IMG/VR virus record: IMGVR_UViG_3300021373_002090
Location: 1-36,824 of that record
Strand: one strand, 5' to 3'
Origin: a virus
Length of the DNA: 36,824 bases
A model generated the notes under the pieces. That model was not told the DNA's origin. It was given only the letters and a program-made list of their open reading frames with translations, and searched no databases. Below, one piece after another: positions 14,397-30,920 of the stretch. The position numbers and the translations under genes are program-made. Position 1 is the first letter of the stretch. Every line of letters starts with the position of its first letter.

Positions 14397-14427
14397 TATA
14401 GACCTTAATCGCCTCGCGTGATAAAAA
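14397..14427 (+). promoter_or_regulatory. Late-class promoter, site A (TATAG-N20-TAAAAA)
   Basis: GGGTT precedes TATAG at 14397-14401; 20 bases later is TAAAAA at 14422-14427, with TG at 14419-14420 giving an extended -10. It lies 26 bases before the protease start. If TAGACC is taken as the -35, the spacer is 17. It is one of six sites with the same geometry. Confidence 0.6.
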
Positions 14428-14452
14428 ACCTTTAAATTTTGCGGGGCGTTCT

Positions 14453-15100
14453 ATGGAAAAATTAAACACAGCCTTTGAATTTAAGAAATTGCCGGATGAT
14501 GACGGCGTATTTGAAGGTTATGCGTCCGTTTTTAACGTTGTTGATAATGGCATGGACGTTGTCGCGCGCGGGGCATTCACCAAATCGCTTGCAAATCGCA
14601 AGCCCAAGATGCTTTGGCAGCACGAAATGGACCAGCCGATTGGCGTTTGGGACGAAATGCAAGAAGATGAGCGCGGGCTATACGTTAAGGGCCGCATTTT
14701 GAAGGACGTGCAGCAAGGCCGTGAAGCCATGGCGCTAATAAAAGCGGGTGCGATTGACAGTATGTCGATTGGCTACATTACAAAGTCATCAAGCGAGCAA
14801 GGCGGCGGGAATATTCGCCAACTTGACGAGGTGGATTTATTTGAGATCAGCCTTGTTACCTTTCCCATGTTGGATGACGCCAAAATCACGGCGGTCAAGT
14901 CCATTCAAACAATTCGAGATTTTGAAAAAACCTTACGGGACGTTGGGTTTTCTCAGAAAGAGGCCAAAGCCATTGCGGCTGACGGCTACAACGGTCTGGC
15001 AGATCATCGGGACGATGTGGCGCGTGTGACTGACACCGAAGGGCAAAAGGCCCTTATGGATCAACTCAGACAGCTACAGGAGACGCTACAAAATGTCTGA
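14453..15100 (+). CDS. Prohead protease, HK97 type (serine protease, U35)
   Basis: This 215-residue protein has FEGYASVFNVVDNGMDVVARGAF at the start, catalytic His in LWQHEMDQPIG (about residue 57), the Ser segment DSMSIGY (about 102-108) and LFEISLVTFPM (about 129-139). It cleaves scaffold and capsid delta domains during maturation and itself. The C-terminal 60 residues contain a helical region, possibly autocleaved. ATG 14453 lies just downstream of late promoter A. The stop overlaps the capsid gene start. Confidence 0.9.
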   Translation: MEKLNTAFEFKKLPDDDGVFEGYASVFNVVDNGMDVVARGAFTKSLANRKPKMLWQHEMDQPIGVWDEMQEDERGLYVKGRILKDVQQGREAMALIKAGAIDSMSIGYITKSSSEQGGGNIRQLDEVDLFEISLVTFPMLDDAKITAVKSIQTIRDFEKTLRDVGFSQKEAKAIAADGYNGLADHRDDVARVTDTEGQKALMDQLRQLQETLQNV

Positions 15101-16403
15101 TGAACTTGATATGAAGATGATTGCAAAGGCCGTCGAAGATGTGAACAAAGCATGGGAAGCTGAAAAGTCCGCCCGTGATGAAATCGCAGCCGAAGTTAAA
15201 AAGCTTGGCGCAGCAATGCCTGAAACCGAAGCCAAACTTGCGAAGATTGCCGAAGACCTCGACAAAGCGCAGCGAGTTGCTGACGAAGCGGTCCTTGCCG
15301 CTAAGCGCGCGTCAAATGTTGTTTGCAATGAGCGCGGCGACATTGTGGACATGGAAAAGCTGATGGCTGAAAAGACCGCAGCCTTTGACCGCCAAATTAA
15401 GTCTTTCGGCATCACTGCACCAAACGCAGACGGCGAAGCGCTGGACGGCTACAAGACCGCAGAGCAAGCATACTGGCGCAAAGGTCTTGACGTTATGTCA
15501 GACGCAGAGCGCAAGGCGCTTTCTGTTGGTGGTGACGCGAACGGCGGCTTTGTTGTAAACCCTGATATGTCTGGCCGCGTGGTGCAGAAGGTGTTTGAGA
15601 CTTCGCCAATGCGCGCCTATGCGTCGGTGCAGGTTATTTCGACCGATGCTCTGGAAGGTTTGTTTGACCTTAACGAAGCTGGTTTCGGTTGGGTTGAAGA
15701 AACTGGCGCACGCGCTGAAACTTCAACGCCAGATCTCGGCAAGTATCGCATCCCCGTTCACGAAATGTTTGCAAAGCCAACGGCTACCCAAAAGCTGCTT
15801 GACGACGCAGAGCTTGACATGGAGGCATGGCTTGCTGGCAAGGTTGCCGACCGTTTTGCCCGCGCTGAAAATGCTGCATTTGTTAATGGCGACGGCGTAT
15901 CAAAGCCTCGCGGGTTTTTGACTTACGATGCAGGCACTACACTTCCAGGCCAAATCCAACAGCGCAACTCTGGCGCAAGCGGCGCATTTCCCTCCGCGGC
16001 AGGCGGGGGTGACGTGCTGATTGATGCGCTTTACGACCTTAAAGCGCCTTATAAAGCAAACGCCACCTGGGCTATGAGCCGCGCAACTAGCAAGCTAGTT
16101 CGCAAGTTAAAAGATACCACCGGCGATTACTTGTGGACGCCGGGCATTGCTGCGGGTCAGCCTGCAACGCTTCTTGGCTATCCGGTTGCATCGTTTGAAG
16201 ACATGCCAGATCCGGCAGCTGGTTCTCTATCCGTTGCGGTTGCTGATTGGGCGCAAGCTTATCAGATCGTTGATCGCATCGGCATTCGGACGCTTCGCGA
16301 TCCATATTCCTCCAAGCCTTACATCGAATTCTATTCGACGAAGCGCGTTGGTGGCGACGTGGTCAACTTTGAAGCAATCAAGCTAATTAAACTGGCCGCA
16401 TAA
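15093..16403 (+). CDS. Major capsid protein, HK97 fold with delta domain
   Basis: This is a 436-residue protein. Residues about 1-110 are a charged coiled coil acting as built-in scaffold (delta domain), expected to be removed by the protease. The HK97 fold follows: ALSVGGDANGGFVVNPDMSGRVV, FETSPMRAYASV, GWVEETGARAETSTPDLGKYRIPVHEMFAKPTATQKLLDDA, AFVNGDGVSKPRGFL, and LLGYPVASFEDMPDPA near the end. ATG 15093 overlaps the protease stop, which fits stoichiometric co-translation. A strong terminator follows directly. Confidence 0.95.
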   Translation: MSDELDMKMIAKAVEDVNKAWEAEKSARDEIAAEVKKLGAAMPETEAKLAKIAEDLDKAQRVADEAVLAAKRASNVVCNERGDIVDMEKLMAEKTAAFDRQIKSFGITAPNADGEALDGYKTAEQAYWRKGLDVMSDAERKALSVGGDANGGFVVNPDMSGRVVQKVFETSPMRAYASVQVISTDALEGLFDLNEAGFGWVEETGARAETSTPDLGKYRIPVHEMFAKPTATQKLLDDAELDMEAWLAGKVADRFARAENAAFVNGDGVSKPRGFLTYDAGTTLPGQIQQRNSGASGAFPSAAGGGDVLIDALYDLKAPYKANATWAMSRATSKLVRKLKDTTGDYLWTPGIAAGQPATLLGYPVASFEDMPDPAAGSLSVAVADWAQAYQIVDRIGIRTLRDPYSSKPYIEFYSTKRVGGDVVNFEAIKLIKLAA

Positions 16404-16423
16404 GCCGACAATCACCGAAAACG

Positions 16424-16451
16424 AAAAGGCCCCCAAAGCGGGGGCCTTTTT
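16424..16451. terminator. Strong bidirectional rho-independent terminator
   Basis: AAAAGGCCCCC (16424-16434) and GGGGGCCTTTT (16440-16450) form a perfect 11-bp stem around AAAGC. T-runs on both strands allow it to end both the capsid operon from the left and the opposed cassette from the right. Confidence 0.95.
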
Positions 16452-16456
16452 CTTTG

Positions 16457-16564
16457 CTAAAACGGCGGTTCTTCGCCTTTAAAAGATGGTTTCCAGATAA
16501 CCTCAACGCCGTGCATCTGGCGGATATACTCAACAAGACGGTCTGACCATATGCTGTTAGCCAT
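16457..16564 (-). CDS. 35-residue protein at the end of the opposed cassette
   Basis: On the minus strand ATG 16564-16562 lies one base after the stop of the preceding gene, consistent with coupling. The peptide begins MANSIWSDRLVEYIRQMHGV and ends KGEEPPF; it looks like a compact helix plus tail. The stop is at 16457-16459, right beside the terminator. No family is recognised, but the clean coupling and full use of the gap support a real gene. Confidence 0.5.
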   Translation of the reverse strand: MANSIWSDRLVEYIRQMHGVEVIWKPSFKGEEPPF

Positions 16565-16565
16565 C

Positions 16566-17177
16566 CTAAACTTCAATCATGCGCTCAAGCACGCCAATCG
16601 GATCAACCTTTTGCCAGAAATCGCGGTGGGCAGCGCAGACAGCGGCGTAAGCAGCGTCGTAGGCGGCGCAAGCAGTGTCGTAGTCGGCGCGGGCGGCAAA
16701 GGAGGCAGCGCGGGCAGCAGCGGCGGCTAAGCTCGCGCCGTAGCAGCGGGCGGCAAAGGATGCGTCTGAGGCGGATTCATATGTGCGCTGCTCGCACATT
16801 ATTCGCCACTCATCGCCAAAACCCTTTTTATCAGCATCCGTCTGCAATTGCGGCAACACTGTTCCCCACATCCAATCCATCAATACCGCCAAACGCTTTT
16901 CTTCTTTCTCACGTCCCGTTCCCGGCGCTGTCATTAGCATTGCTCGGTAGCGGTCGCTGTTGCGCATGTCGTCCGGCATCTGATCTTGAAGGTTGATAAT
17001 CGCTTTGCCGAGCACCTCAGACATGCAGTCTGGTGTGTTGTCAGTTAGCCTGCCGTCGATTGCCAAATTGATCGCGGCAATGCTGCACGCGCTTTCCTTC
17101 GTGCCAAGCCCTCTAGGCAAAGTGTGGCTCTCAAGATATTGTTTGAGGTTTGCGGCGTGTTCGTTTGTCCAAAGCAT
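16566..17177 (-). CDS. Phage protein with conserved N-terminal domain and Ala-rich repeat tail (203 residues)
   Basis: ATG 17177 on the minus strand lies behind AAAGAAAGGAAA and is preferred to an upstream start at 17201. Residues about 1-130 form a folded domain with SACSIAAINLAIDGRLTD, PDCMSEVLGKAIINLQDQMP and LMDWMWGTVLPQLQ. I recall this domain in many phage hypothetical proteins, where it is often followed by an alanine-rich helical tail, as here (residues about 135-190, repeats of A-x-x-A with Tyr/Asp/Arg). The function is unknown. The tail likely forms one long helix. The gene is transcribed against the structural genes around it. Confidence 0.75.
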   Translation of the reverse strand: MLWTNEHAANLKQYLESHTLPRGLGTKESACSIAAINLAIDGRLTDNTPDCMSEVLGKAIINLQDQMPDDMRNSDRYRAMLMTAPGTGREKEEKRLAVLMDWMWGTVLPQLQTDADKKGFGDEWRIMCEQRTYESASDASFAARCYGASLAAAAARAASFAARADYDTACAAYDAAYAAVCAAHRDFWQKVDPIGVLERMIEV

Positions 17178-17245
17178 ATCGTTTCCTTTCTTTTCCGTCA
17201 ACTTGTGCCCAGCTCATGGGAGGGCGCGGAAGTCATATGCGTTAC

Positions 17246-17620
17246 TCACTGTTCCTCGTCCCCCTTACGCAAGATGGACAGAATTCGTTCAAGTTCGTCT
17301 GCGGACAGTGAGTTAATTCGAGAATTCATGCGCCGCGCCATAAGCCCGGCGGTATCGCGTTCGAGGTCGGTGCTGGCTTCTAGGGTGAACGCCTTGCGCG
17401 AACGATCGGCTGCATTGCGAAGCGCATCAGCCGTTTCACCCACAAGACGGTAGGTTTTGATCACGAGTTCTTCAAACCCGGATGGGGGCGATTTCTTTCC
17501 AGTTTCGACCGCCGATACAAAGGCGGACGATTTTTCAAGACGTTTGGCCATATCCAGCAGACGTTCGTCTTCGTCTATTCGGATTTTTCGCAGTTCCTTC
17601 CCAATTGCTGTTGTTGTCAT
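17246..17620 (-). CDS. XRE-family transcriptional regulator
   Basis: ATG 17620 (minus) follows AGGAGGGCGACT; a longer ORF to 17680 has no such site. The 124-residue product begins MTTTAIGKELRKIRI and has an XRE helix-turn-helix (DERLLDMAKRLEKSSAFVSAVETGKKSPP), then a helical C-terminus. The single domain and absence of a LexA-type protease argue against a classical CI repressor, though it could still repress early promoters. Its promoter shares a 38-base block with the early promoter at 3414, so it may be controlled by the same factor, possibly itself. It heads a cassette lying between capsid and head-tail genes. Confidence 0.8.
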   Translation of the reverse strand: MTTTAIGKELRKIRIDEDERLLDMAKRLEKSSAFVSAVETGKKSPPSGFEELVIKTYRLVGETADALRNAADRSRKAFTLEASTDLERDTAGLMARRMNSRINSLSADELERILSILRKGDEEQ

Positions 17621-17680
17621 AGTCGCCCTCCTTTTGTGGTTAACGAAAGGTATCATGCGTGGATCACAGCTCCTATCCAC

Positions 17681-17708
17681 AACCTACACATAAAAAACTT
17701 GGCCGCAA
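17681..17708 (-). promoter_or_regulatory. Early-class promoter of the opposed regulator cassette (TTGCGG-N16-TAGGTT)
   Basis: On the minus strand TTGCGG is the complement of 17703-17708 and TAGGTT of 17681-17686, 16 bases apart. The block down to 17671 matches 3414-3451 at 34 of 38 positions. The leader to ATG 17620 is about 50 bases. It lies back to back with late promoter B. Confidence 0.65.
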
Positions 17709-17723
17709 CCATTGTTTGTGGTG

Positions 17724-17754
17724 TATAGGCAAAAAACTTAGCGCGTGGTAAAGG
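17724..17754 (+). promoter_or_regulatory. Late-class promoter, site B (TATAG-N20-TAAAGG)
   Basis: TATAG 17724-17728, 20 bases, TAAAGG 17749-17754, with TG at 17746-17747. The upstream box is degenerate (GGTG). A small inverted repeat ACGGGT/ACCCGT (17760-17765, 17775-17780) follows before the gene at 17811. It restarts late transcription after the opposed cassette. Confidence 0.5.
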
Positions 17755-17810
17755 GATGCACGGGTTGATACCTGACCCGTCTAGTTACTCGCGACTTAAG
17801 GGGTTTACAA

Positions 17811-18248
17811 ATGCGCGATTTAGTTTCTACCGCCCAAATGGTCCATCTGGGCAATGTTACCGTCTCCAACGGCACCGCAACTTCTGCATATGCTGATCTG
17901 CAAGGTTTTGACGGCGCGACTATCGTTGTCGTTGCCAACGGTATTGTCGCCGCAGGCAACGACGGTTTTACCGTTACTCTGCAAGAAAGCGCCGACACCG
18001 CCGCCAACTCCGCGGCAATCGTTGATGCAGCAAACACTGTTGGAGGGGCCAACACTGTAACAGTCACCTCGGACGACGCTGACAACACCATTGCAGGCGA
18101 GTTCGGCTATCTTGGCAGCAAGCAATACGTCGGCATTACCGTCACCGGAACAACTGGTTCAAACGCTGACATTTCCGTATATGCTTGCCTTGGCAAGCCA
18201 GCCCAAGCGCCAACGACCTTTATTGGAACGGCAGTCACCCGCACCTAA
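17811..18248 (+). CDS. Probable virion structural protein (capsid-associated, 145 residues)
   Basis: ATG 17811 lies behind AAGGGG. The protein is beta-rich, Ala/Thr/Val-rich with few charges: MRDLVSTAQMVHLGNVTVSN, GFDGATIVVVANGIV, FTVTLQESADTAANSAAI and GITVTGTTGSNADISVYACLG. The pattern 'G-F-x-G-A-x-I-V-V' followed by 'L-Q-E-S-x-D-x' recurs in small proteins located after major capsid genes and fits a head decoration or completion protein. Exact identity is not proven. Confidence 0.7.
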   Translation: MRDLVSTAQMVHLGNVTVSNGTATSAYADLQGFDGATIVVVANGIVAAGNDGFTVTLQESADTAANSAAIVDAANTVGGANTVTVTSDDADNTIAGEFGYLGSKQYVGITVTGTTGSNADISVYACLGKPAQAPTTFIGTAVTRT

Positions 18249-18271
18249 TAGGCGGCACATTGCGAATTTTT

Positions 18272-18295
18272 GGGGCGGGGGTTATCCTTCGCCCC
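18272..18295 (+). other. GC-rich hairpin after the 17811 gene
   Basis: GGGGCG (18272-18277) and CGCCCC (18290-18295) enclose 12 bases and are followed by ATATTTATTT. The T-run is interrupted, so this may be a weak terminator or attenuator that tunes expression between the abundant protein upstream and the genes downstream. Confidence 0.45.
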
Positions 18296-18319
18296 ATATT
18301 TATTTGGAGGCACGGCTTG

Positions 18320-18544
18320 GTGGACATGACATTTTCAGTGACAAATATGCCTGATGGCGTAATTTTGGCCCTGCCCAATCAAGATCCGCTTTTTATCCCT
18401 AGCGAGTTGGTTTCAATTGTATCGGACACGATGCTTGCAACGCAAGGCTATGCTAACGCGTCTGGGCTGGACTTTGACAACCTAGAAGAGCTAATGCGCC
18501 CCAAACTAACGCTAATTGACGGCGGCAAAAAAGATAAAGATTAA
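18320..18544 (+). CDS. Hypothetical structural-module protein (about 74 residues)
   Basis: GGAGG at 18306-18310 best fits the GTG at 18320 (or TTG 18317); ATG 18326 is 15 bases away. The product begins M-D-M-T-F-S-V-T-N-M and contains LFIPSELVSIVSDTMLATQGYANASG and a basic, Lys-rich end. No family is recognised. It lies between a probable decoration protein and the head-tail connector cluster, so a head role is inferred. Confidence 0.55.
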   Translation: MDMTFSVTNMPDGVILALPNQDPLFIPSELVSIVSDTMLATQGYANASGLDFDNLEELMRPKLTLIDGGKKDKD

Positions 18545-18549
18545 GGGTC

Positions 18550-18580
18550 AATAGCGCCACAATCGGCAACGTGCTACATT
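18550..18580 (+). promoter_or_regulatory. Late-class promoter, site C (AATAG-N20-TACATT)
   Basis: GGGTC runs directly into AATAG 18550-18554, with 20 bases to TACATT 18575-18580 and TG at 18572-18573. It begins directly after the preceding stop codon and lies 20 bases before the gene at 18600. Confidence 0.5.
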
Positions 18581-18599
18581 TTCAAAATGAGGTTTAACA

Positions 18600-18866
18600 A
18601 TGGCAGAAACGCAGGCAAAAATTATCAATCGGTTTGGCTACCGATGCGCACCGGACGGACACACGGTTGAGGAATTTAATTTAGGTGAAATCGTTGAAGG
18701 ACAAATTGCTATTTGGGCCGTTGATGAAAACGCAGCGATTTGGATCAAGCCAAAAGACAAACCAATTGAAACCGCATCACCGCCCGCGCTCGAAGCTAAA
18801 ATTGAAACCGCAACGGAAACAAAGCCGCGCCGCGCGCGAGGCAGACCAAGAAAGGCAGACAAATGA
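18600..18866 (+). CDS. Small structural-module protein with AT-hook-like tail (88 residues)
   Basis: ATG 18600 follows TGAGG. The N-terminal 55 residues form a small beta domain (INRFGYRCAPDGHTVEEFNLGEIV, IAIWAVDENAAI). A linker and a basic tail ARGRPRKADK carrying the GRP core of AT-hooks follow. Proteins with this tail frequently precede the head-tail connector in phages; DNA contact in the head neck is possible but unproven. It overlaps the next gene by four bases. Confidence 0.65.
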   Translation: MAETQAKIINRFGYRCAPDGHTVEEFNLGEIVEGQIAIWAVDENAAIWIKPKDKPIETASPPALEAKIETATETKPRRARGRPRKADK

Positions 18867-19543
18867 GCCTGCGCGTTCCTGTTCGAATAACGGCCTTTCG
18901 GGGCCACAAGCAGACGGTTGCGCCGAATGGTGAGCCTGTAACCGCAGATGAACTACGCACGCACTTGCGCGAAACCGCTACGGGCTTGCCGGACAGTGAA
19001 GCGATCGCATTCATTGCCGAGGCCCGCACGTGGATTGAACAGCAAACAAATATTGCCATGATGACGCAAACTTGGCTTGTGGCAATGGACCGATGGCCTA
19101 GCGCGCGTGAACAGTGGTGGGACGGCGTGCGCCAAGGCTCAAGAAGTGAGCTTTACGGGCCGCAAAGTTACAGCGACATTACTTTGCCCCGTTATCCGCT
19201 TCAAAGCATTTCTGGCGTCAACGTATACGACGAAGACGGCAACGCAACGGCTGTTTCAGTCGCAACAGTGTTTGACGTTGACACCTACAGCACACCGGGA
19301 CGCATGAACCTAAAGCGCGGGCAAACTTGGCCAATTGCGCTGCGCGCAAATAACGCCATAGAGGTCACTTACGTTTCCGGCTATGGTGCCGCTTCGGACG
19401 TACCTGCCCCGCTGGCGGGCGCTGTGAAGCGGCTTGCGGCTCATCTTTACGCGCACAGGGGCGACGGGTGCGAAATGGATGACGCCTGGAACAAGAGCGG
19501 CGCAAAATCAATGGTTGATAGCTACAAGCTAATTCAAATATGA
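18863..19543 (+). CDS. Head-tail connector protein (HK97 gp6 / phiE125 gp8-like)
   Basis: This 226-residue protein has an N-terminal helical part with LRETATGLPDSEAIAFIAEARTWIEQQTNIA, typical of gp6-like connectors that form a ring under the portal. A beta-rich part follows (ITLPRYPLQSISGVNVYDEDG, IEVTYVSGYGAASDVPAPLAGAVKRLAAHLYAHR), as in the phiE125 gp8 family. ATG 18863 overlaps the preceding stop. It would normally be followed by the head-tail adaptor; here the adaptor is 4 kb away at 23656. Confidence 0.85.
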   Translation: MSLRVPVRITAFRGHKQTVAPNGEPVTADELRTHLRETATGLPDSEAIAFIAEARTWIEQQTNIAMMTQTWLVAMDRWPSAREQWWDGVRQGSRSELYGPQSYSDITLPRYPLQSISGVNVYDEDGNATAVSVATVFDVDTYSTPGRMNLKRGQTWPIALRANNAIEVTYVSGYGAASDVPAPLAGAVKRLAAHLYAHRGDGCEMDDAWNKSGAKSMVDSYKLIQI

Positions 19544-19797
19544 CAAATTTTGAGCAAACTTTGAGCGCTGAAAGCTGGACCGAAATTTTGAGCGGCGGTT
19601 CTGTCATCGCGTTTGATTTGGTCGCAAGCCCTTCAATTTTTGTTTACATGACCGAGAGCGACACGCCGCCAGACGTAAACGCCAAAGGAAACGAGGTGCT
19701 TTCCTATCCTTCGGGCTGGGATTACGTTGCCGAGGGGTTGCCGTCTAATCAACGCATTTGGGCGAAGGGCGAAAACATCATTCGCGGCATAAGATGA
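19540..19797 (+). CDS. Hypothetical protein of the structural cassette (85 residues)
   Basis: ATG 19540 overlaps the connector stop. The product contains ESWTEILSGGSVIAFDLVASPSIFVYMTESDTPP and ends IWAKGENIIRGIR. The phrase 'S-G-S/G...V-Y-x-T-E-S-D-T-P-P' with a terminal 'W-A-K-G' resembles small virion proteins that decorate neck or fibre complexes in marine phages, from memory only. It overlaps the next start. Confidence 0.65.
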   Translation: MTNFEQTLSAESWTEILSGGSVIAFDLVASPSIFVYMTESDTPPDVNAKGNEVLSYPSGWDYVAEGLPSNQRIWAKGENIIRGIR

Positions 19798-20042
19798 ACA
19801 ACGGGAAGCAAATAAACGCGGCAAGCGGGGTTGGATCGGCAGCGCTTAAAAACCCTGTTTTCACATATTCAACTTCGACAAAGGTTTTGTCTTCTATTGC
19901 GTATGACAACGGGTCAAAGACCTTGGCATATAACACCGATGGCACATTAAACACGCTTACGACAACGATTAGCGGCGTTACGACGACAAAAACACTTTCC
20001 TACAACGCAGACGGCACTTTAGCGTCAATTACTGAGACTTAG
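19794..20042 (+). CDS. Small beta-repeat protein with YD-like repeats (82 residues)
   Basis: ATG 19794 overlaps the previous stop. After about 20 residues the protein consists of short Thr/Ser-rich strands and two YNxDGTL units (TLAYNTDGTLNTLTTT and LSYNADGTLASIT), resembling RHS/YD repeats on a miniature scale. Such repeats form beta hairpins. A structural or assembly role is inferred from position. No signal peptide is seen. Confidence 0.65.
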   Translation: MNNGKQINAASGVGSAALKNPVFTYSTSTKVLSSIAYDNGSKTLAYNTDGTLNTLTTTISGVTTTKTLSYNADGTLASITET

Positions 20043-20049
20043 GTGAAAC

Positions 20050-21366
20050 ATGGCACTGATAACCGACCCCGACGACCTTAACCAAGGCACCGAAATCACA
20101 ATTGACACGTCAGGCCAAACGATTGCGCTTGCCGTGGCTGGCAACTTGTCAAACGACGGGGTGACGGGGCAGGCGCTTTATTCGTTTCTCAAGGAGGAAT
20201 GGAAAAACGACGCTTCATTGATCCCATACCCTTTCCCGATGGTTTCAATTACGCCGGAACAGTTCGAATTTATTGAGGATTGGGTGCCTGCGAATGATAC
20301 GACGCGGAACCTAATTCGCACGGCGGGTTGGCGTGAAATCACGGCGGCGGATGCTGTTGAGCGCGAATATATGGGCATTATATCGCTCGGCAACATTGAT
20401 GGGGCCGATACGCCGTATTTTGCCTTTAGCAGCGACAGCGCAAAGACTGATTTTGACTTTGCAGGCACGATCAACCAGGCCATTCAAACTTTTGGCGATG
20501 CGTCAAACGGCAACTTTGACAAGCGGTCTGACACGCTGACGGTTTATATCCGAGCGCAGGGCAAAACCTACGGGTCGGCAACCTCGACCAGCATCGGCCT
20601 GACGGGTCTAAATTACATTGCAAACCGTTTTCCGCTTGCTGAGGCCGCAGACAGTAAGATTTCCGCTTCTGACAGCGACATTGCGACGACTGCGCCTTAC
20701 ACGGGCATGTCTATCACTTACGGCGCAACGACGCGGTCAATCGGTGGCGTTAGCTACAACTTCAACGTGATTGTAGACGGTAACAACGGCACCACACAGC
20801 AAATCTATGAGTTTGTGCAATACAGCTTGCGGCAATCGTCAGACATTGACGACGGTGCCGGGACGCAAGTGGGCCAGCTTGCAGACAGTCTAATGAACTT
20901 TCAGGGCGACACGCTCAAGACGACAACGGGCGTTGCAATTGACAACTTCCAAGCAAGCGACAGAAACAACCTGGTGTTCACGGACACGGGCGGCACAGAA
21001 CGCACATTCCCATTCTTGGCAACCGGAACAATCAGCTTCAACGCAAACCTTGTGAACGACAGTGACGCGATTTACCGCATGTTCTTCACAAGCGGGTTCG
21101 GCACTGGTTCGGCAATCCTAGTTGACGACAACAGCGGCACAGACATCAGCGGATCCGTAGGCGGTGCTTCAAGCGTTGCGTTCGATTTTGACTATGATGG
21201 CAACACGCAGGGCGGGCGCACGGCTGGCACTGACGCTGCCGTCACTGTGGTTGCAATCGGTCTTGACGGTGCGCAATATGTTTCCGCGACAGCCACTATT
21301 GCCCGCGTTACGGGACAGAACATCTCACTTGTTGCTCCGCTTGAGCGTAACTACGACAACTCTTAA
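20050..21366 (+). CDS. Large virion protein, probable tail fibre/spike-associated (438 residues)
   Basis: The protein is acidic, Thr/Ser/Asn-rich and beta-dominated throughout: ITDPDDLNQGTEITIDTSGQ at the start, a middle with REYMGIISLGNIDGADTPYF, and a C-terminal part with DYDGNTQGGRTAGTDAAVTVVAIG, then a last segment ending LERNYDNS. I recall related proteins in marine phages as virion proteins of unknown role. Its C-terminal R-N-Y-x-N element recurs at the end of the next protein. The gene sits within the head-tail joining cluster, an atypical place for a fibre gene. Receptor interaction is inferred. Confidence 0.65.
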   Translation: MALITDPDDLNQGTEITIDTSGQTIALAVAGNLSNDGVTGQALYSFLKEEWKNDASLIPYPFPMVSITPEQFEFIEDWVPANDTTRNLIRTAGWREITAADAVEREYMGIISLGNIDGADTPYFAFSSDSAKTDFDFAGTINQAIQTFGDASNGNFDKRSDTLTVYIRAQGKTYGSATSTSIGLTGLNYIANRFPLAEAADSKISASDSDIATTAPYTGMSITYGATTRSIGGVSYNFNVIVDGNNGTTQQIYEFVQYSLRQSSDIDDGAGTQVGQLADSLMNFQGDTLKTTTGVAIDNFQASDRNNLVFTDTGGTERTFPFLATGTISFNANLVNDSDAIYRMFFTSGFGTGSAILVDDNSGTDISGSVGGASSVAFDFDYDGNTQGGRTAGTDAAVTVVAIGLDGAQYVSATATIARVTGQNISLVAPLERNYDNS

Positions 21367-23164: not shown

Positions 23165-23596
23165 ATGGCTGATGCGACTTTTGACGGTGCAAACCTGCAT
23201 ATAACACTTCCAAGCATTGGCTCCTTTGACGCTCAGAAGGAGATTTATAGCGCGTGGAAAGAATGGATCCGGCAGAGCGACAACGCCAAATATCCACCCG
23301 CGTTTGATACAACGGGCGGCGACGTGGTCGGATCCGGCGAAACCGTCGCGCCATATTTCTTTTGCCGCAACGATTTGGGTTGGCGAATTAAGATGCCGCA
23401 AGCGGACGGCGAAATCGTGGTGGCGGGCAATTTGTTTCCGCGAGACCCAAGCGCGTCATTATTTGAACAAACGTCAGGCTATGACGCCTTCTTGCGGCTT
23501 GAGGTGTCGACCAGGGCGGTTGTGATTGAGCGAGGCACAAGCGGCTTGACCGACGCAGAGGCGGCGCAACTGGCGTTAATCCCGGCGCTACTATAG
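23165..23596 (+). CDS. Virion-associated protein of the same cassette (143 residues)
   Basis: ATG 23165 lies one base after the preceding stop. The product has IYSAWKEWIRQSDNAKYPPAF, GGDVVGSGETVAPYFFCRNDLGWRIKMP and GEIVVAGNLFPRD, followed by a helical end GTSGLTDAEAAQLALIPAL. I recall this 'W-K-E-W...PAF..GGD...YFF..N..GWRI' pattern in many phage genomes next to fibre or spike genes, without assigned biochemistry. It may connect the spike proteins to the particle. The stop codon forms part of late promoter F. Confidence 0.65.
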   Translation: MADATFDGANLHITLPSIGSFDAQKEIYSAWKEWIRQSDNAKYPPAFDTTGGDVVGSGETVAPYFFCRNDLGWRIKMPQADGEIVVAGNLFPRDPSASLFEQTSGYDAFLRLEVSTRAVVIERGTSGLTDAEAAQLALIPALL

Positions 23597-23622
23597 GCAA
23601 AGCGCCGTTTGTCGCGTATTAT
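23592..23622 (+). promoter_or_regulatory. Late-class promoter, site F (TATAG-N20-TATTAT)
   Basis: TATAG 23592-23596 includes the stop codon of the preceding gene. TATTAT at 23617-23622 follows after 20 bases. There is no TG extension, but the -10 is the best of the family and TAGGCA at spacing 17 is a fair -35. It precedes the head-tail adaptor at 23656. Confidence 0.5.
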
Positions 23623-23655
23623 ATGGCAACTTCGGTTAATTTTAAGTGATACGCC

Positions 23656-24000
23656 ATGAGATGTTGCGACATGAAAGCGGGTTTGCTGCGCGAGCCTGTG
23701 ACGTTTGAGAGATCCACCAAGGCAAGCGACGGCGCGGGCGGCTTTACCGAGGCATGGGTGGCTATTAGCGGCGCGCCTGACCGCGCACACTTCAAGGCAT
23801 TGTCTGGCGCTGAAAGGTTTGCGTCTGACCGCATAGAGGCCACGACGCGAAACAGAATTGTGGTGCGATACTTCGCGGGCCTAAAGGAAAGTGACCGCGT
23901 TTTGATCCGCTCGCGTGCTTACAATATCCAGTTTATCGACAATATCGAAATGCGCGATATGTGGCTGCAAATTGACCTAGACGGCGGGCGGGCGGTCTAA
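23656..24000 (+). CDS. Head-tail adaptor (SPP1 gp16-like)
   Basis: This 114-residue protein has MKAGLLREPVTFERSTKASDGAGGFTEAWVAI, LSGAERFASDRIEATTRNRIVVRYFAGL and ending 'M-W-L-Q-I-D', the standard phage head-tail joining fold. It plugs the connector and stops DNA leaking. ATG 23656 and the in-frame ATG 23671 are both possible; the family usually starts close to the MKAG segment, so 23671 may be the real start. It overlaps the next gene by one base. Confidence 0.85.
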   Translation: MRCCDMKAGLLREPVTFERSTKASDGAGGFTEAWVAISGAPDRAHFKALSGAERFASDRIEATTRNRIVVRYFAGLKESDRVLIRSRAYNIQFIDNIEMRDMWLQIDLDGGRAV

Positions 24001-24431: not shown

Positions 24432-24841
24432 ACGGCGACAATCTGCAAAAGGCTATTTATAACAAACTAACCGGCGACGAAACTTTAACGGCGCTAATTA
24501 CGGGCGTATATGCCGACGTGCAGCAACCCGACGAGCCGGAAAGCGAATCCTTGTTTCCCTATGTGACCATTGGGCAAGATAACCTTGAGCGATGGGATAC
24601 AAAAACTGATTTTGGCGTCAATGCGTTGTGTCAGATTGATGTTTGGAGCCGTCAAAACAATTATTTAGAAGTCAAAAAGATTGCATCAAACATTTACAGC
24701 GCTTTGCACGCAAAAAGCCTGACCATACCCGAAGCAGAGCACGTTTTAACGCGGGTTGAGAGCGAAGAATACACAATTGATGAAGACGGCCACACAAAGC
24801 GCGGCTTGATGCTTGTCCGCGTAATTTACGACGAAATTTAG
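24428..24841 (+). CDS. Tail terminator-like protein (DUF3168)
   Basis: This 137-residue protein begins MNGDNLQKAIYNKLTGDETLTALITGVYAD, then has SLFPYVTIGQDNLERWDTKTDFG and IDVWSRQNNYLEVKKIASNIYSAL, matching DUF3168, a family that caps tail tubes. The GTG start at 24428 overlaps the previous stop as GTGA. The next gene follows after a 72-base gap with a late-class promoter. Confidence 0.85.
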   Translation: MNGDNLQKAIYNKLTGDETLTALITGVYADVQQPDEPESESLFPYVTIGQDNLERWDTKTDFGVNALCQIDVWSRQNNYLEVKKIASNIYSALHAKSLTIPEAEHVLTRVESEEYTIDEDGHTKRGLMLVRVIYDEI

Positions 24842-24845
24842 GGTC

Positions 24846-24876
24846 TATCGCACTGTAAAGCGCCATGTGATAAAAG
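24846..24876 (+). promoter_or_regulatory. Late-class promoter, site D (TATCG-N20-TAAAAG)
   Basis: GGGTC runs directly into TATCG 24846-24850; 20 bases later TAAAAG 24871-24876 is preceded by TG. A second GGGTCAATATAGG lies at 24878-24890. The site provides separate expression of the abundant major tail protein. Confidence 0.6.
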
Positions 24877-24913
24877 CGGGTCAATATAGGCTTGCTTTTA
24901 GGAGACTTACACA

Positions 24914-25333
24914 ATGGCAGCGACGGCAGGGCGCAATTTGCGCATTAAGTATGACGCAGACGGCGCGGGCGGCAGTGCAGCCGTGGTGATAGCCGGGGCG
25001 CGGACTGAAAGCCTCACGTTCAACAACGAGGCGATTGACATCACCGACAAAGACGACGTTGGGGTGCGCACGCTTCTGGACGACATCGGCACGAAGTCAA
25101 TGGATCTTTCTTGCGAAGGCGTTCTTGTTGACAACACGCTGATTGAACTGGCGCACGCTGCAACCACATCCGCAGCGCTTCACACTTTCGAGATTGAGAT
25201 TGCGGGCATTCGCAAATACACAGGCTCGTTTTTCATCTCAAGCTTTGAGGCATCGGGCGCGGAAGGCACCGACCCCGTGACGTTTACGATGTCGCTGCAA
25301 TCGTCTGGTGCAGTTGCGAGCGCTTCTGTATGA
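24914..25333 (+). CDS. Major tail (tube) protein
   Basis: This 139-residue protein contains GRNLRIKYDADGAGGSAAVVIAGARTESLTFNNEAIDITDKDDVGVRTLLDDIG and FEIEIAGIRKYTGSFFISSFEASGAEGTDPVTFTMSLQSSG. The 'N-E-x-I-D-I-T-D-K' and 'G-x-F-x-I-S-S-F-E' elements define the phage major tail protein family shared with GTAs. It polymerises into the tail tube. GGAG lies before ATG 24914, which follows its own late promoter. It overlaps the chaperone gene by four bases. Confidence 0.9.
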   Translation: MAATAGRNLRIKYDADGAGGSAAVVIAGARTESLTFNNEAIDITDKDDVGVRTLLDDIGTKSMDLSCEGVLVDNTLIELAHAATTSAALHTFEIEIAGIRKYTGSFFISSFEASGAEGTDPVTFTMSLQSSGAVASASV

Positions 25334-25671
25334 GCGTTTTTCGCGAAGCTGAAATTGAGTTGGGCGGGAAAACTTACACGGTTGTTCCGTCCAATCGCTT
25401 GCTGCGCCGCATTGAGAATGAAGTCTCGCTTGCGCGCATGGCCTTCAACTATGAACGCGGCGAGCCTCAAAACTCGCATCTGGCCTTTGTGATTGCAAAG
25501 CTTATCAACACTGACCCGACAGGCTTTGACATGACGGAAGATAAGGTCATGGGTGAGTTGATGCAAATGGAAGCGGCGACCCAGCTTCAAGGCATTTGGG
25601 GTGCTGTGTTCACAATATTAATGCCTCCGCCCAAAAAAAAAGACGCGGCGGAAAGCGACCCGAGCGAATAG
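25330..25671 (+). CDS. Tail assembly protein, GTA gp10-like (G-type chaperone)
   Basis: This 113-residue protein has MSVFREAEIELGGKTYTVVPSNRLLRRIENEV and MEAATQLQGIWGAVFTILMPP. It resembles the gene-transfer-agent gp10/tail-assembly chaperone family, which loads the tape measure for tube assembly. Near its end, codons CCC AAA AAA AAA GAC give nine consecutive A (25633-25641), a typical -1 slippery site. Slippage fuses the first 104 residues to the downstream frame. Without slippage it ends KKKDAAESDPSE. Confidence 0.85.
   Translation: MSVFREAEIELGGKTYTVVPSNRLLRRIENEVSLARMAFNYERGEPQNSHLAFVIAKLINTDPTGFDMTEDKVMGELMQMEAATQLQGIWGAVFTILMPPPKKKDAAESDPSE
25633..25641 (+). promoter_or_regulatory. Putative -1 ribosomal frameshift site (nine A)
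   Basis: Zero-frame codons AAA AAA AAA contain the heptamer A-AAA-AAA. The -1 frame is open from here to 25889. The zero frame stops at 25671. This mirrors the lambda G/G-T arrangement. Assembly error in the A-run is the main alternative. Confidence 0.6.
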
Positions 25672-25889
25672 ATGATATCCCAGAAACATTTCATTGGGAA
25701 AATATGTTTCTGGAGGCCATCAACTGGGGGATTGCTCCGGGCGAGTTTTGGGACATGACGCTTGGCGAGTGGTGGGCCATTTACGACATGCACGAAAGCC
25801 GCGCGCCGTATGGGGCAACCAAAATGACCCGAGACGAAATTGACGATCTGTTAGAGTGGACGCTAAACGATGGCACTTCCCCCGCTTAA
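25641..25889 (+). CDS. Tail assembly chaperone C-terminal part (T-type), probably made by frameshift
   Basis: The -1 frame encodes RRGGKRPERIDDIPETFHW and then MFLEAINWGIAPGEFWDMTLGEWWAIYDMHESRAPYG. The second part matches the small GTA-type tail chaperone (G-x-x-P-x-x-F-W-x-x-T-x-x-E). Ribosomes could also start at ATG 25704, giving 61 residues with only a weak upstream site. The frameshift fusion would have about 186 residues. It overlaps the tape measure start by 20 bases, as T-type genes often do. Confidence 0.75.
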   Translation, partial: RRGGKRPERIDDIPETFHWENMFLEAINWGIAPGEFWDMTLGEWWAIYDMHESRAPYGATKMTRDEIDDLLEWTLNDGTSPA

Positions 25890-27717
25890 AATAAAAATCA
25901 GCGCCGACACAAAGGGCGTGCAGGCCAGCCTAGACCAAGTCGAAGCGGCGGTTGATGGCGTTGACGAAGCAACCCGAAAATATAACAGCACGCTTGCGAA
26001 CCTTGCGCGGGCGTCAAAGTCGGGCGCGATTAGCGCAGACCAGCTTGCCGCGGCAACCGATGAAGCCGAGCGCAACTATAGGTCGGCGGCGAGTTCTGCG
26101 GCGGCGCTGACAGGCGCGCAGGTCACGGCATCACGGCAGGCGAAGGTTCTGGGCGGCGCAATGCAAGGGTCTTCGGCCCATACTGCCAACCTTGGCGCGC
26201 AGTTTAACGATATTGGCGTGATGCTTGCGGCGGGTCAAAGCCCGCTGATGCTTGCCGTTCAACAAGGTACGCAGATCAATCAGGTCATGGCGCAAATGGG
26301 CGGCGGCAAAACAGCGCTGCGCGGCCTTGCGGCTGGTTTCATGTCCATGGTCAACCCGATGAGCCTTGCGACTATCGGGATTATTGCGGGCGGCGCTGCG
26401 CTTATTCAATGGGGCATGTCGGCATCCGAAGCCAGCGAAGAATCTAAAAAGCTTGCAGAGCGAATGGAGGAAATTGAGGAAAGCGCCGATAATGCGGCAA
26501 GGGCGCTTGAGCGCGCTAGGCTTGGCATAACCAGCGAAGAACAGCGAATAAATGAAGCTTTAGTCCAGCAGCAGCGCGACCTTGACAATATGGCCCTGCG
26601 GCGAATGGGAAGCATCTCTTTAATTTCTGAAATAGAAGCGGAGATTGCCAACCTTCAAAGTCAATCGATACAAGAAAGCTCAATGCTCATGCAAGGCAAG
26701 CGCGCGCAGCTTGCCGCTGCAAAAGCGGCGCTTGAAAATGACGAAATGGCTTTGGCCGCTATTGGCGACCAAATGAAGGTTCTGCGGGACAATTTGGCGC
26801 TTGAGCGCGAAAGAGTTTCAAAAGTCAGGCTTTACAATGAGGGCTTGACGGACGCCACGATCAAATCAATGGAATTGGCCGGAATTGACATTTCGGGCGA
26901 AATATCACGGGCTGCGATTGAGGCCGCAAAGCTTGCGCAAAATTTAGGATTGTCCGTCGAGCAAGCACAAGCGGTCATGCGCATTCAAGCGGCGCTAAGA
27001 AGCGGAAGCGGCATTCCAGAGGGCGAGTTCGGCGGCACAATTACAACGCCAGAAGATGTAAGATTCCAAGGCACTATTATTGACGGATCGGACGTTGAGG
27101 ACGATGGCGGTGGCGGCGGTGGCAGGCGCACAAATTCTGGCCTAACGTCGCTTGTAGACATGCTGCAAACCGAGCGCGAACAGCTTGCCGAGTGGTACGC
27201 CGAAAGCCAAGAACTGTTGCAAAACGCATCAGACGCAGAGCTTGCCATTCTTGGCGGCAAACATGAGGCCATGCAGCGGCTTGAAGCAGAACACCAAGAG
27301 CGAATGCGCGCTATAACAGACAGCGGCATGTCAAGCGCGGTGCAAACATATGAAAAATACGGCTCGCAAATCCTTTCTGGGCTTGGCGCAACTAGCCAGC
27401 AAATTGCGCTCATCAACGCTGCCGTGGGCGCGTCTCAGGCGCTTGCTGACCCATCAATCCCGTTCTTTGGTAAGTTTGCCGCTGTGGCGCAGGTATTGGC
27501 CGCAGGGCGCAGCTTGGCGAAACAGGCAGAAGCAGGGGGCCGGGGCGCGGCTTCGCCTTCTGGCGGCGTATCAGCGGCCCCAGCGGTTGTTTCGCGTGAG
27601 GTCAATGTTAATCTAACTGGAGGCGATGCTAGGTCGCAGGGCAATATCCGCGACCTAATTGAGCAGATTAACGAGGCCGTGGGTGACGGCGCGTCTCTCA
27701 ATGTGAGGATGGCTTAA
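25870..27717 (+). CDS. Tail tape measure protein
   Basis: This is a 615-residue protein. The N-terminal domain has KIKISADTKGVQASLDQVEAAVDG. It is followed by the tape-measure core GAQFNDIGVMLAAGQSPLMLAVQQGTQINQVM (about 109-140), a hydrophobic stretch NPMSLATIGIIAGGAALIQWGM (about 163-184) and long coiled-coil helices. A Gly-rich hinge (DDGGGGGGRR) and a C-terminal part with SQQIALINAAVGASQALADP complete it. Its length predicts a tail near 90 nm by the usual 1.5 angstrom per residue rule, consistent with a siphovirus. ATG 25870 lies inside the upstream chaperone frame. Confidence 0.95.
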   Translation: MALPPLKIKISADTKGVQASLDQVEAAVDGVDEATRKYNSTLANLARASKSGAISADQLAAATDEAERNYRSAASSAAALTGAQVTASRQAKVLGGAMQGSSAHTANLGAQFNDIGVMLAAGQSPLMLAVQQGTQINQVMAQMGGGKTALRGLAAGFMSMVNPMSLATIGIIAGGAALIQWGMSASEASEESKKLAERMEEIEESADNAARALERARLGITSEEQRINEALVQQQRDLDNMALRRMGSISLISEIEAEIANLQSQSIQESSMLMQGKRAQLAAAKAALENDEMALAAIGDQMKVLRDNLALERERVSKVRLYNEGLTDATIKSMELAGIDISGEISRAAIEAAKLAQNLGLSVEQAQAVMRIQAALRSGSGIPEGEFGGTITTPEDVRFQGTIIDGSDVEDDGGGGGGRRTNSGLTSLVDMLQTEREQLAEWYAESQELLQNASDAELAILGGKHEAMQRLEAEHQERMRAITDSGMSSAVQTYEKYGSQILSGLGATSQQIALINAAVGASQALADPSIPFFGKFAAVAQVLAAGRSLAKQAEAGGRGAASPSGGVSAAPAVVSREVNVNLTGGDARSQGNIRDLIEQINEAVGDGASLNVRMA

Positions 27718-28521
27718 ATGGGCGTTATATTTGAGAGCAATTATACGCTGCCGGGTTCGGATCAGCCACTTGCAAACGCCCGAATTGCGCACGCAAATAC
27801 ATGGTATGCGGGCGGCACAATCGCGGCGTCCAGCACCGCGACAGATTTTTTTGCATCGGGTCCAAACAATTCGCTGACCTATGAAAAATGGAAGCCAACA
27901 AGCGCAACTGCAACTTGGGAAACTGATTTGGGATCTCCGAAAGCAATTGATTATTGCGCAATCGCCGCTCACACAATGGGAACGAATGGCAACACGCTTG
28001 AGGTCGAATATTGGAACGGGTCGGCGTGGGCGGGTGTTATCCCGTCAACTGCTATCGGTGACAACATGCCCGTGTTTTGCATCTTTGAGCCTGTGACCGC
28101 GCAACGCTGGCGCATATCAATCAGCAACGGCACCGCGCCCGAAATTGGCGTTATTCGGTTTGGCGCAGCCATGCAAATGCCGCAGGCTATATACGGCGGG
28201 CATTCCCCGCTTGATTATGGCCGCATGACGCGCAGCCAATCCGCTTACAGCATGTCAGGCGAGTTTTTGGGCCGCTCAAAGCAGAGAGGATGGCTAGAAG
28301 CGTCGTTTGATTGGACGCATTTGACGCGCGCTTGGATTGATACCTATTGGAAATCATTTCAAAAGGCAGCGGAAAGCGAGCCGTTTTTCATTGCCTGGCG
28401 TCCAGAGGATTTTAGCGAGGTTGGATATTGTCAGGCAGAGCGAGTTCCGGCACCCACATCAATGAGCATTGGCTCATATCATTCCGTAAATGTTGCAGTA
28501 ACGGCGCGCGCTTATGACTAA
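27718..28521 (+). CDS. Probable distal tail protein (267 residues)
   Basis: It directly follows the tape measure gene, the usual position of the distal tail protein. The first half (about 1-150) looks like a galactose-binding-type beta sandwich: YEKWKPTSATATWETDLGSPKAIDYCAIAAHTMG, VFCIFEPVTAQRWRISISNG and GVIRFG. The second half contains RGWLEASFDWTHLTRAWIDTYWKSF and PFFIAWRPEDFSEVGYCQAE, fitting a tail-tip adaptor. Assignment rests on position and architecture. Confidence 0.75.
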   Translation: MGVIFESNYTLPGSDQPLANARIAHANTWYAGGTIAASSTATDFFASGPNNSLTYEKWKPTSATATWETDLGSPKAIDYCAIAAHTMGTNGNTLEVEYWNGSAWAGVIPSTAIGDNMPVFCIFEPVTAQRWRISISNGTAPEIGVIRFGAAMQMPQAIYGGHSPLDYGRMTRSQSAYSMSGEFLGRSKQRGWLEASFDWTHLTRAWIDTYWKSFQKAAESEPFFIAWRPEDFSEVGYCQAERVPAPTSMSIGSYHSVNVAVTARAYD

Positions 28522-30265
28522 GGATCTGGCGGGAAGAGAAGTTGTGCAGGTTGTTGAAATTGAGCAGCCCTTTTGCTCGCTTGTTTATGGCAACAACCCA
28601 TGCACTGCGCAGGGTACGGACGACAAAAAGTGCTATAACACATACGCGACATGCCAAGATCAAGACAATTTTGCAGCGTCCACGCTGTCGCTTTATTTCA
28701 CGCGTGGCAATGTTGCGGATCAAAACATTTCGGGCGTAACGTATGCTATTCCGTCGCTTGTATCGGTCAGCACATCGCCAACCCGGATAAACCTTTCAAG
28801 CGCTAATAAATCCGCAAGCGGCCTTGGCAACAGGGCAAGCGTTAAGATCAAATTCAAGGACCATCCGCACACTGATAAGCGCGTTGATCCCTACGTTGAC
28901 GGCAGGTCGTGGGACCCATATTTGCGGGCGTCGTTTTGGTCGAAATGGTTTGCACGTAATCGCTATCGACAGAATATTACTGTCAAAGTTTACGAGGGCT
29001 ACGAGGGCGAAGCGCTAGGCGCAATGACCGTGCGGGAATATGTTTGGGACAGTTTCACAGGCCCAGACGCTGACGGCAATGTTGTCGTAACGGCCAAGGA
29101 CATTTTGGCGAAGGTTGAAGAACGCAAAGCGCTTGCGCCGGTTGCTAGTCCCGGAAAGCTTCACACAAACATAGCAAGCGGCACAAGTCATGTGGAGTGT
29201 AACAGCGCCACGGAGAGCGATTATCCGGCCACAGGCACGCTCAGAATAGGTTCTGAGTGCATGACCTACACAAGCCGCGCAAACAGCGCCAACGGGGTCA
29301 CGTTTAGCGGCCTAACGCGGGGGACAGACGGCACGACGGCGTCAAGCCACAGCGCGGGCGATACAGCGCAACAATGCCTTCGATACACGACGCAACGCAC
29401 CGATGACGTGTTGGCGGACTTGCTGGAAAATTACGCGGGCATTCCATCGACCAAGCTAGACACGGCAAACTGGGCTACAGAATATGACAGCTTTTCGCCA
29501 TCCGTCACGCTCACCGCGTTGATTACAAAGCCAACGGGCGTAAATCAGCTTGTGTCGGAAATCAGCGAGCAGTCTTCATCCTATATTTGGTGGGATGAGC
29601 GGGACGCCTTAGTCAAATTCAAGGTCATTTCAGGGCTTAACGTAGCGCCTGATATATTGACCGAGGAAAGCCACATTTTGGACGGTTCGCTTTCATTCCG
29701 CGACCTTCCCGATCAGCGTGTGTCGCAGGCTTGGGTTTATTACCTGCTTGACGACGTAACGCGGTCAATCACCGATGCGGAAAATTGGAAAGCTATTCAA
29801 ATATCTGCGGATCTAAACGCAGAGGGCGACAACGAATATGGCGAAAAGTCGGTGCGCGAAATCTTTGCACGCTGGTTGCCGTCCGATGCTTTAGCGGTGC
29901 CGCTGGCGAACAGGACGCTGACAAGATATGTCGATGTGCCGCGTGAGGCGCGGTTTAGGCTTGACGCAAAAGATCGGACTTATTGGACAGGCGACACGGT
30001 TAGGCTATCAACTGACATGGAGGTTGACGCGTTTGGCGAAAGGCGTCAGGCGACGTACACAATCATCCAAGCCGAGGAAGTTGTGCCGGGGGAGGTTGTC
30101 GAATACATGGCAATCTCTGCAACGGCATTTGGCAAGATTTACCGCATTATGGCAGCGGGGTCGGGTGACTATCCTGGCGCTGCGACTGCGGGCTATACTG
30201 ACGCATATATTGGAAACAGCGCTGGCGTTCTTAGCGACGGCGAAATTTGCGCGAGGATTACATGA
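28514..30265 (+). CDS. Tail hub / tip protein with N-terminal Cys cluster (583 residues)
   Basis: The N-terminus shows a Cys pattern CSLVYGNNPCTAQG...KCYNTYATCQDQDNF that I recall in tail-tip proteins of alphaproteobacterial phages; it could bind metal or form a knot. The rest is beta-rich with KIKFKDHPHTDKRVDPYVDGRSWDPY, LRIGSECMTYTSRANSANGVTFSGLTRGTDGT and a C-terminal domain ending GEICARIT. It likely forms the central hub below the distal tail ring. It overlaps both neighbours by a few bases. No peptidase motif is seen. Confidence 0.75.
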   Translation: MTKDLAGREVVQVVEIEQPFCSLVYGNNPCTAQGTDDKKCYNTYATCQDQDNFAASTLSLYFTRGNVADQNISGVTYAIPSLVSVSTSPTRINLSSANKSASGLGNRASVKIKFKDHPHTDKRVDPYVDGRSWDPYLRASFWSKWFARNRYRQNITVKVYEGYEGEALGAMTVREYVWDSFTGPDADGNVVVTAKDILAKVEERKALAPVASPGKLHTNIASGTSHVECNSATESDYPATGTLRIGSECMTYTSRANSANGVTFSGLTRGTDGTTASSHSAGDTAQQCLRYTTQRTDDVLADLLENYAGIPSTKLDTANWATEYDSFSPSVTLTALITKPTGVNQLVSEISEQSSSYIWWDERDALVKFKVISGLNVAPDILTEESHILDGSLSFRDLPDQRVSQAWVYYLLDDVTRSITDAENWKAIQISADLNAEGDNEYGEKSVREIFARWLPSDALAVPLANRTLTRYVDVPREARFRLDAKDRTYWTGDTVRLSTDMEVDAFGERRQATYTIIQAEEVVPGEVVEYMAISATAFGKIYRIMAAGSGDYPGAATAGYTDAYIGNSAGVLSDGEICARIT

Positions 30266-30651
30266 CGACTTACACCGCCATTGCGGACACTGAAATTGAT
30301 CAGGACAGCCCCGTCACCGAAACCCTATGGACAAAAATGCGGGACAATCCGATTGCGATTACGGAGGGCGCGAGCGGTGCGCCAAAAATTCAAACCCCTG
30401 CAATAAATGACGCTGCGGTGACTCAGGTTAAGCTAAATACCACTCTTGCATCTTATGCGGGTTCGATACCTTCTGAGGCGTCAGTAAACATTGCAACCCC
30501 GAATGCTTATTCTTTTTTCCCTAATTGGAGCAATAATGGCAACATTGAAGTCAGTTTTAGATCTGGCGGGTTGGATGCTCTAAGGCTGTTTAACGGCAAC
30601 GAAAGCGGGGCAAGGAGTTATTCCGTTAGCTGGAGGTATATCAACGCATGA
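30262..30651 (+). CDS. Short tail fibre-like protein (129 residues)
   Basis: ATG 30262 overlaps the previous stop (ATGA). The start YTAIADTEIDQDSPVTETLWTKMRDNPIAITEGASGAPKIQ is the standard attachment segment of many phage tail fibres. Here it is followed by only about 85 residues of beta-rich sequence. It may be a short fibre or a fibre stem truncated relative to relatives. The large spike candidates at 20050-23163 may supply receptor binding instead. Confidence 0.75.
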   Translation: MTTYTAIADTEIDQDSPVTETLWTKMRDNPIAITEGASGAPKIQTPAINDAAVTQVKLNTTLASYAGSIPSEASVNIATPNAYSFFPNWSNNGNIEVSFRSGGLDALRLFNGNESGARSYSVSWRYINA

Positions 30652-30881
30652 CACCTTTTTATTATTGTGCATTTGTCACTGACGGGCAGGTTGTTATGGT
30701 TGGAACAGATACTTCAAACCCGCCAGCTATTCCTATACAAGACCCAGCGCCGGATTTGATTATTTCGGGAACGGCAGAGGGAGAAAAAACAAACGCGAGC
30801 GATTTGTTTCCGTTGGCTTCATGGGATGGCGAAAACATTGCCATTGAGGGCGTAACAATTTTAACGCAGGAAACTGTTTAA
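30648..30881 (+). CDS. Hypothetical protein after the fibre (77 residues)
   Basis: ATG 30648 overlaps the previous stop. It is acidic and beta-rich with YYCAFVTDGQVVMVGTDTSNPPAIPIQDPAPD and WDGENIAIEGVTI. The position resembles that of small fibre-assembly proteins, but there is no clear family match. A late-class promoter follows. Confidence 0.6.
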   Translation: MTPFYYCAFVTDGQVVMVGTDTSNPPAIPIQDPAPDLIISGTAEGEKTNASDLFPLASWDGENIAIEGVTILTQETV

Positions 30882-30889
30882 GGGGGTCT

Positions 30890-30920
30890 TATAGAATAAA
30901 ACGGTTCTTTGTGGTAAAAG
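30890..30920 (+). promoter_or_regulatory. Late-class promoter, site E (TATAG-N20-TAAAAG), lysis region
   Basis: GGGGGTCT leads to TATAG 30890-30894, 20 bases, TAAAAG 30915-30920 preceded by TG. It begins just after the stop of the preceding gene and lies immediately upstream of the membrane/lysis cluster. Confidence 0.6.

Follow-up and report, generated by a model that had tools for sequence, protein, structure and literature searches.

At the middle promoters of phage T4, which depend on MotA and AsiA (sigma appropriation), a host −10 element, often extended (TGn), is combined with an activator box in the place of the −35 element; this MotA box, (a/t)(a/t)(a/t)TGCTTtA, is centred at −30 and lies 12 ± 1 bp from the −10 (PMC2988021). 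At Mu Pm and the C-dependent late promoters of Mu, an activator site likewise replaces the −35 of a sigma70 promoter, the Mor site of Pm being a 16-bp inverted-repeat element centred at −43.5 (PMC4390567). Phages phiEco32 and 7-11 encode a sigma factor and carry several late promoters at similar positions in related phages but with a different consensus; that of 7-11 is bipartite, with its sigma factor gp47 reading GTAAtg-(16)-aCTA (PMC8948821). In the Caulobacter GTA, virus-derived GafY/GafZ aid RpoD where the −35 is degenerate, at a single promoter that precedes head and tail genes and also involves IHF and a site far upstream, at −123 to −113 (PMC11150451).

The sequence analysed here is the whole of IMG/VR siphophage record IMGVR_UViG_3300021373_002090 (36,824 bases, hereafter the window), for which the original prediction had proposed a six-member family of late promoters built as TATAG-N20-TAWWAN. 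All six sequences are present where they were reported, and five of them (14397, 17724, 18550, 24846 and 30890) are genuine members of a real family. In its strict form, the proposed pattern did not survive, as it fits only three of the six sites, one of which is the rejected site at 23592. The five share GGGTYTATAG-N16-GTGRTAAAAG (more fully, TAAGGG(GG)TYTATAG-N16-GTGRTAAAAG), with a conserved core best given as GTGRTAWAA, and are placed 5′ of protease, decoration-type, connector, tail-tube and lysis genes:

14387–14427, plus strand: putative late promoter 1, TAAGGGGGTTTATAG-N16-GTGATAAAAA, 5′ of the head maturation protease gene (14453) and the major head protein gene
17714–17754, plus strand: putative late promoter 2, GTTTGTGGTGTATAG-N16-GTGGTAAAGG, 5′ of the 17811 gene (phrog_5707), past an inserted minus-strand cassette
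18540–18580, plus strand: putative late promoter 3, the weakest, TTAAGGGTCAATAG-N16-GTGCTACATT, 5′ of the 18600 gene and connector genes
24836–24876, plus strand: putative late promoter 4, TTTAGGGTCTATCG-N16-GTGATAAAAG, 5′ of the major tail protein gene (24914)
30879–30920, plus strand: putative late promoter 5, TAAGGGGGTCTTATAG-N16-GTGGTAAAAG, 5′ of the lysis region

None of the five has the TTGnnn −35 hexamer, 16–18 bp from the −10, of a standard sigma70 promoter. The window box does not correspond to a MotA box; it is shifted upstream by about 10 bp, with 20 bp separating its end from the TA-rich hexamer, and it precedes late genes whereas MotA/AsiA serve middle genes. Nor is it of the Mor/C type, being no clear dyad and having no dyad common to the five boxes. 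Because the sequence and position of the box differ, we do not claim membership of the T4 middle or Mu Pm class. The five compact promoters also differ from the single promoter of the Caulobacter GTA, and the positions of GafA/GafY sites, which were considered because GTAs share head genes, do not match.

Several comparisons within the window support the family. The pattern [AT]AT[AC]G-N17-TGNTA has exactly five matches over both strands (73.6 kb), all on the plus strand and all in intergenic gaps. In dinucleotide shuffles, the same pattern occurred on average 0.54 times (maximum 3), with none of 300 reaching five, although these motif probabilities are only guides because the motif words were picked by eye after the sites had been viewed. 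For comparison, an unrelated 9.5-Mb genome holds 261 matches, about one per 36 kb of double strand, and the reversed pattern is no rarer there. When the spacing between [AT]AT[AC]G and GTGNTA was scanned from 5 to 34 on the plus strand, five matches were found at 16 and at most one at every other spacing. The choice of motif words does not enter the comparison with relatives (below) or a register test, in which the best ungapped 38-base match between gaps fell in the claimed register for eight of the ten pairs of the five sites, and for none of the five pairs that include 23592. In a leave-one-out weight matrix analysis (73,560 positions), 14397, 24846 and 30890 each ranked first among non-training positions, 17724 ranked 7 (with two other positions better), 18550 ranked 99 and 23592 ranked 1733. 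Promoter 3 matches promoter 4 at 24 of 38 bases, a figure reached in none of 60 shuffles. The stop codon of the previous gene forms part of the box at 18550, 24846 and 30890, and the box of promoter 3 starts at it.

The sixth reported site (23592–23622, plus strand) was rejected as a chance match. It lacks GGGT and has CG where the others have TG; the upstream gene ends in frame at its TATAG (CTA TAG), the site sits within a GGCGCT...AGCGCC hairpin, and relatives have no promoter at the equivalent place. The gap that contains it (23582–23655) holds two inverted repeats (GGCGCT...AGCGCC and GCGTAT...ATACGC) and no T run.

In PHROGs comparisons, the plus strand from 10.8 to 33 kb encodes TerL, portal, head morphogenesis, protease, major head, adaptor, head closure, tail completion, tail terminator, major tail, tape measure, fibre and endolysin proteins, and replication and recombination genes flank this late region on either side. 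The statement that the sites lie in gaps between late genes holds in that all five are intergenic, but the gap of promoter 2 contains two minus-strand genes. These form a cassette (16566–17620, minus strand) inserted between the major head protein gene and the 17811 gene; in the closest relative (L017) these two late genes are adjacent. The elements around promoters 2 and 3, each of which stands past a terminator-like hairpin, and the further copies of one of them are:

16424–16450, no strand assigned: strong hairpin terminator following the major head protein gene, with a T tail in either direction
17246–17620, minus strand: gene within the cassette for a small HTH_31-like protein (score below the Pfam cut-off), one candidate regulator
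17671–17713, minus strand: early-type promoter-like repeat, TTGCGGCCAA...TAGGTT, heading the cassette
18271–18296, plus strand: terminator-like hairpin separating the 17811 gene from promoter 3
3409–3451, plus strand: further early-type promoter-like repeat
36523–36562, minus strand: further early-type promoter-like repeat

From this arrangement, promoter 2 may restart late transcription past the minus-strand cassette, and the hairpin at 18271–18296 may close that unit. The early-type repeats consist of TTGCGRCCAA followed about 16 bases on by a TAGGTT/TATATT hexamer, with two copies 86% alike over 43 bases; their TTGCGR, at the −35 position, is missing from the late sites. At promoter 5, ATG 30930 falls approximately at the expected transcription start. 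The lysis-region gene annotated as 30930–31307 therefore probably starts at ATG 30954, which is preceded by AAAGG (Shine-Dalgarno-like).

No similar genome was found at the DNA level in the phage collection searched, and relatives were instead collected as syntenic IMG/VR contigs by searching with the portal, major tail, fibre and head proteins (approximately 30–73% protein identity). In many of these, CTTTGCAA-CTTTGCAA-N-GTGRTATAA-TTTGCAAA is present 5′ of the protease and major tail protein genes. The extended −10 (GTGRTATAA) is that of the window, but the upstream box is different, with TTTGCAA repeats mostly replacing GGGTYTATAG. Within 125 bp upstream, GTGNTA was found for the protease in 11 of 20 and for the major tail protein in 12 of 24 distinct relatives, giving 23 of 44 upstream regions; for 14 other late genes the figure is 14 of 189 (Fisher p = 8e-11; distinct upstream regions counted, locus L118 left out). 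The shuffle expectations are 5.5 of 44 and 20 of 189, respectively, and portal alone among the other genes was slightly above expectation (4/13). Over the gaps of the window and relatives together, the core GTGNTAWAW occurs 23 times on the plus strand versus once on the minus strand, with 18 occurrences in an approximately six-fold larger coding total. The arrangement TTTGCA-N1-3-TTNGCA-N5-GTGNTA has 20 matches in 12 of 20 records, compared with none for the reversed control. In one 36.4-kb record (G013), TTTGCAAA is confined to two copies, which are the promoters of the protease and major tail protein genes. The orthologous conservation thus concerns promoters 1 and 4; no counterparts of promoters 2, 3 and 5 were seen in the relatives, which are mostly fragments with automatically placed gene starts, such that absence of a promoter may reflect missing sequence.

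Palindromic TTTGCAAA repeats surround the extended −10 in L009, L012, L016, L018 and L021–L044, usually with two copies per genome, and appear to constitute a separate late-promoter class of the related phages; a literature search for TTTGCAAA in phage promoters returned nothing relevant. Other upstream sequences also occur, namely GGCATCAAGTTGATGC before GTGATATATT in L047 and GTGTTATAAGGTAACAA in L017. The window weight matrix, scanned over the relatives, gave nothing above shuffle level. Strict searches of IMG/VR and GTDB yielded no related phage with the GGGTYTATAG class, which is known from one genome. The exact consensus search of GTDB returned ten scattered single matches and a contig of a cyanobacterial MAG (L054) with two near-identical copies (411–445 and 1227–1261, minus strand; GAGGGTCTATAGGAGCGCACATTTTCCCATGRTAAAAAA), which was rejected because the genes around them are cellular and the copies form a dispersed intergenic repeat, not part of a phage. 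Matches in viral contigs L141 and L142 were also set aside, as these lack both a protein in common with the window and a convincing second site.

The shared motif, its fixed geometry, its restriction to gaps on the late coding strand 5′ of late genes and the conserved position of two sites are observed directly and, together with the two sites placed past hairpins, give good support to the proposal that these are late promoters of a phage-specific class; what we infer is that the sites act as promoters, that they do so late and with a host sigma factor, and that an activator exists. The explanation that we favour, and consider probable though well short of certain, is that the five sites are late promoters at which host RNA polymerase with its housekeeping sigma factor would recognize the extended −10, GTGRTAWAA, while GGGTYTATAG would take the place of the −35 (approximately −42 to −33 when the TA-rich hexamer is taken as the −10) as the binding site of a putative phage-encoded activator made earlier in infection. 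Such an activator would switch on the head, tail and lysis genes together and let transcription restart past internal terminators. In the relatives, the protease and major tail protein promoters would have kept the −10 and changed the upstream box, with box and activator changing together. The two mechanisms originally offered fare differently: the retention of the extended −10 in relatives whose upstream box has been swapped favours an activator reading GGGT-TATAG over host sigma70 alone. The sites of one phage have the upstream half in common whereas it differs from phage to phage, as a phage-encoded regulator would lead one to expect. The −10 half, constant across the phages, is like the RpoD −10 of Caulobacter, GCTANAWC (PMC8144410), which may point to an alphaproteobacterial host.

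Candidates for this activator, by position only, are three consecutive small genes shortly before the late region (spanning 7712–8506):

7712–8035, plus strand: first small gene
8037–8294, plus strand: second small gene
8291–8506, plus strand: third small gene

For two small proteins encoded upstream of the late region, the predicted structures were of too low a quality to search with. Among the proteins scanned, which comprised part of the ORFs, there was no match to MotA or AsiA, or to Mor/C. A search of the early genes for a regulator in common with relatives yielded mainly replication, recombination and methyltransferase proteins, with one weak HTH match (345–542 to L098).

A simpler account, which we judge unlikely, dispenses with the activator: the sites would be ordinary promoters of the host housekeeping sigma factor that need no more than the extended −10, with TAGnnn as a weak −35, timing that follows from gene dosage or derepression, and boxes that are weak contacts or repressor sites. 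Extended −10 promoters can indeed function without a −35 (PMC2988021), and GRTAWAA is like the Caulobacter RpoD −10, GCTANAWC (PMC8144410). The TTTGCAAA copies of the relatives lie also just downstream of the −10, a place for a repressor. Upstream of the portal gene in three relatives, moreover, TATAG-N16-RTGNTA is found without GGGT, its TATAG including the stop codon of TerL. This could be coincidence, or the geometry of the window sites with the GGGT half missing, and TATAG might accordingly be contacted by sigma and not by an activator. Against this account, GGGT and TATAG are shared by the sites of the window phage and are replaced as a unit in relatives. In addition, the hexamers at the TAG position, 17 bp from the −10 (TAGACC, TAGGCA, TAGCGC, TCGCAC and TAGAAT), match TTGACA at only two to four of six bases, and a consensus promoter scanner run on the window listed none of the five sites.

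A phage-encoded alternative sigma factor reading both boxes, as gp47 does in phage 7-11, would account for a bipartite consensus with a constant 16-base spacing, and phiEco32 and 7-11 also hold their late promoter positions while the consensus changes (PMC8948821). Among phage-encoded regulators it is the chief rival to an activator. We nevertheless find it improbable, as in the relatives only the upstream half changes while the −10 half stays. Among the proteins scanned against Pfam and PHROGs (part of the ORFs), none resembled a sigma factor or RNA polymerase beyond a 65-aa HTH protein with a Sigma70_r3 score of E 0.044, judged meaningless; a very diverged sigma factor could escape such profile libraries.

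Antiterminator loading sites of the Q or GafZ type at late promoters are very unlikely. In their favour, TTTGCAA copies flank the −10 on both sides in the relatives, late transcription would cross terminator-like hairpins, and antitermination by GafZ of the Caulobacter GTA involves its loading between the −35 and −10 (PMC11150451). Among the window sites, however, the bases that separate box and −10 are not conserved, and promoters are placed past the terminators, in contrast to one promoter reading through them. Chance or stop-codon and coding constraints without promoter function can be dismissed as scarcely credible, for although three of the five boxes start at a stop codon and the words were originally picked by eye, the shuffles, spacing scan and register test all speak against it, the five sites have no common RNA fold or Rfam match (and no tRNA was found), and relatives carry the promoter core at two of the same places.

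Returning to the activator-dependent promoters, we suggest tentatively, as a possibility that we rate below even, that a widespread siphophage group holds a fixed pair of late promoters, those of the protease and major tail protein genes, in which the extended −10 stays constant while each lineage has a different box, read by its own non-homologous activator, box and regulator being exchanged as a unit; in the window phage, the box would have spread to three more operons. Fixed promoter positions with an altered consensus are already known from phiEco32 and 7-11; new are the GGGTYTATAG class, the TTTGCAA class and the constant −10 versus exchanged box across one syntenic phage group. Late control is known in only a minority of uncultured siphophages. 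The comparison yields a map of late promoters that can be tested across a broad phage group, in which a constant sigma-contact module is set apart from a changing activator module, and it names two boxes, GGGTYTATAG and the TTTGCAA repeats, with which the regulators might be fished out.

The ends of the record carry a 164-base direct repeat (99% identical), and the record is therefore probably a complete circular assembly. A 12-base tandem repeat array at 54–317 encodes a repetitive protein (GNVxGSVxG...) spanning these ends. A second 12-base array lies at 33352–33520, between the lysis region and minus-strand genes, and the gene at 8503–8961 contains a perfect 24-base tandem duplication (8834–8881).
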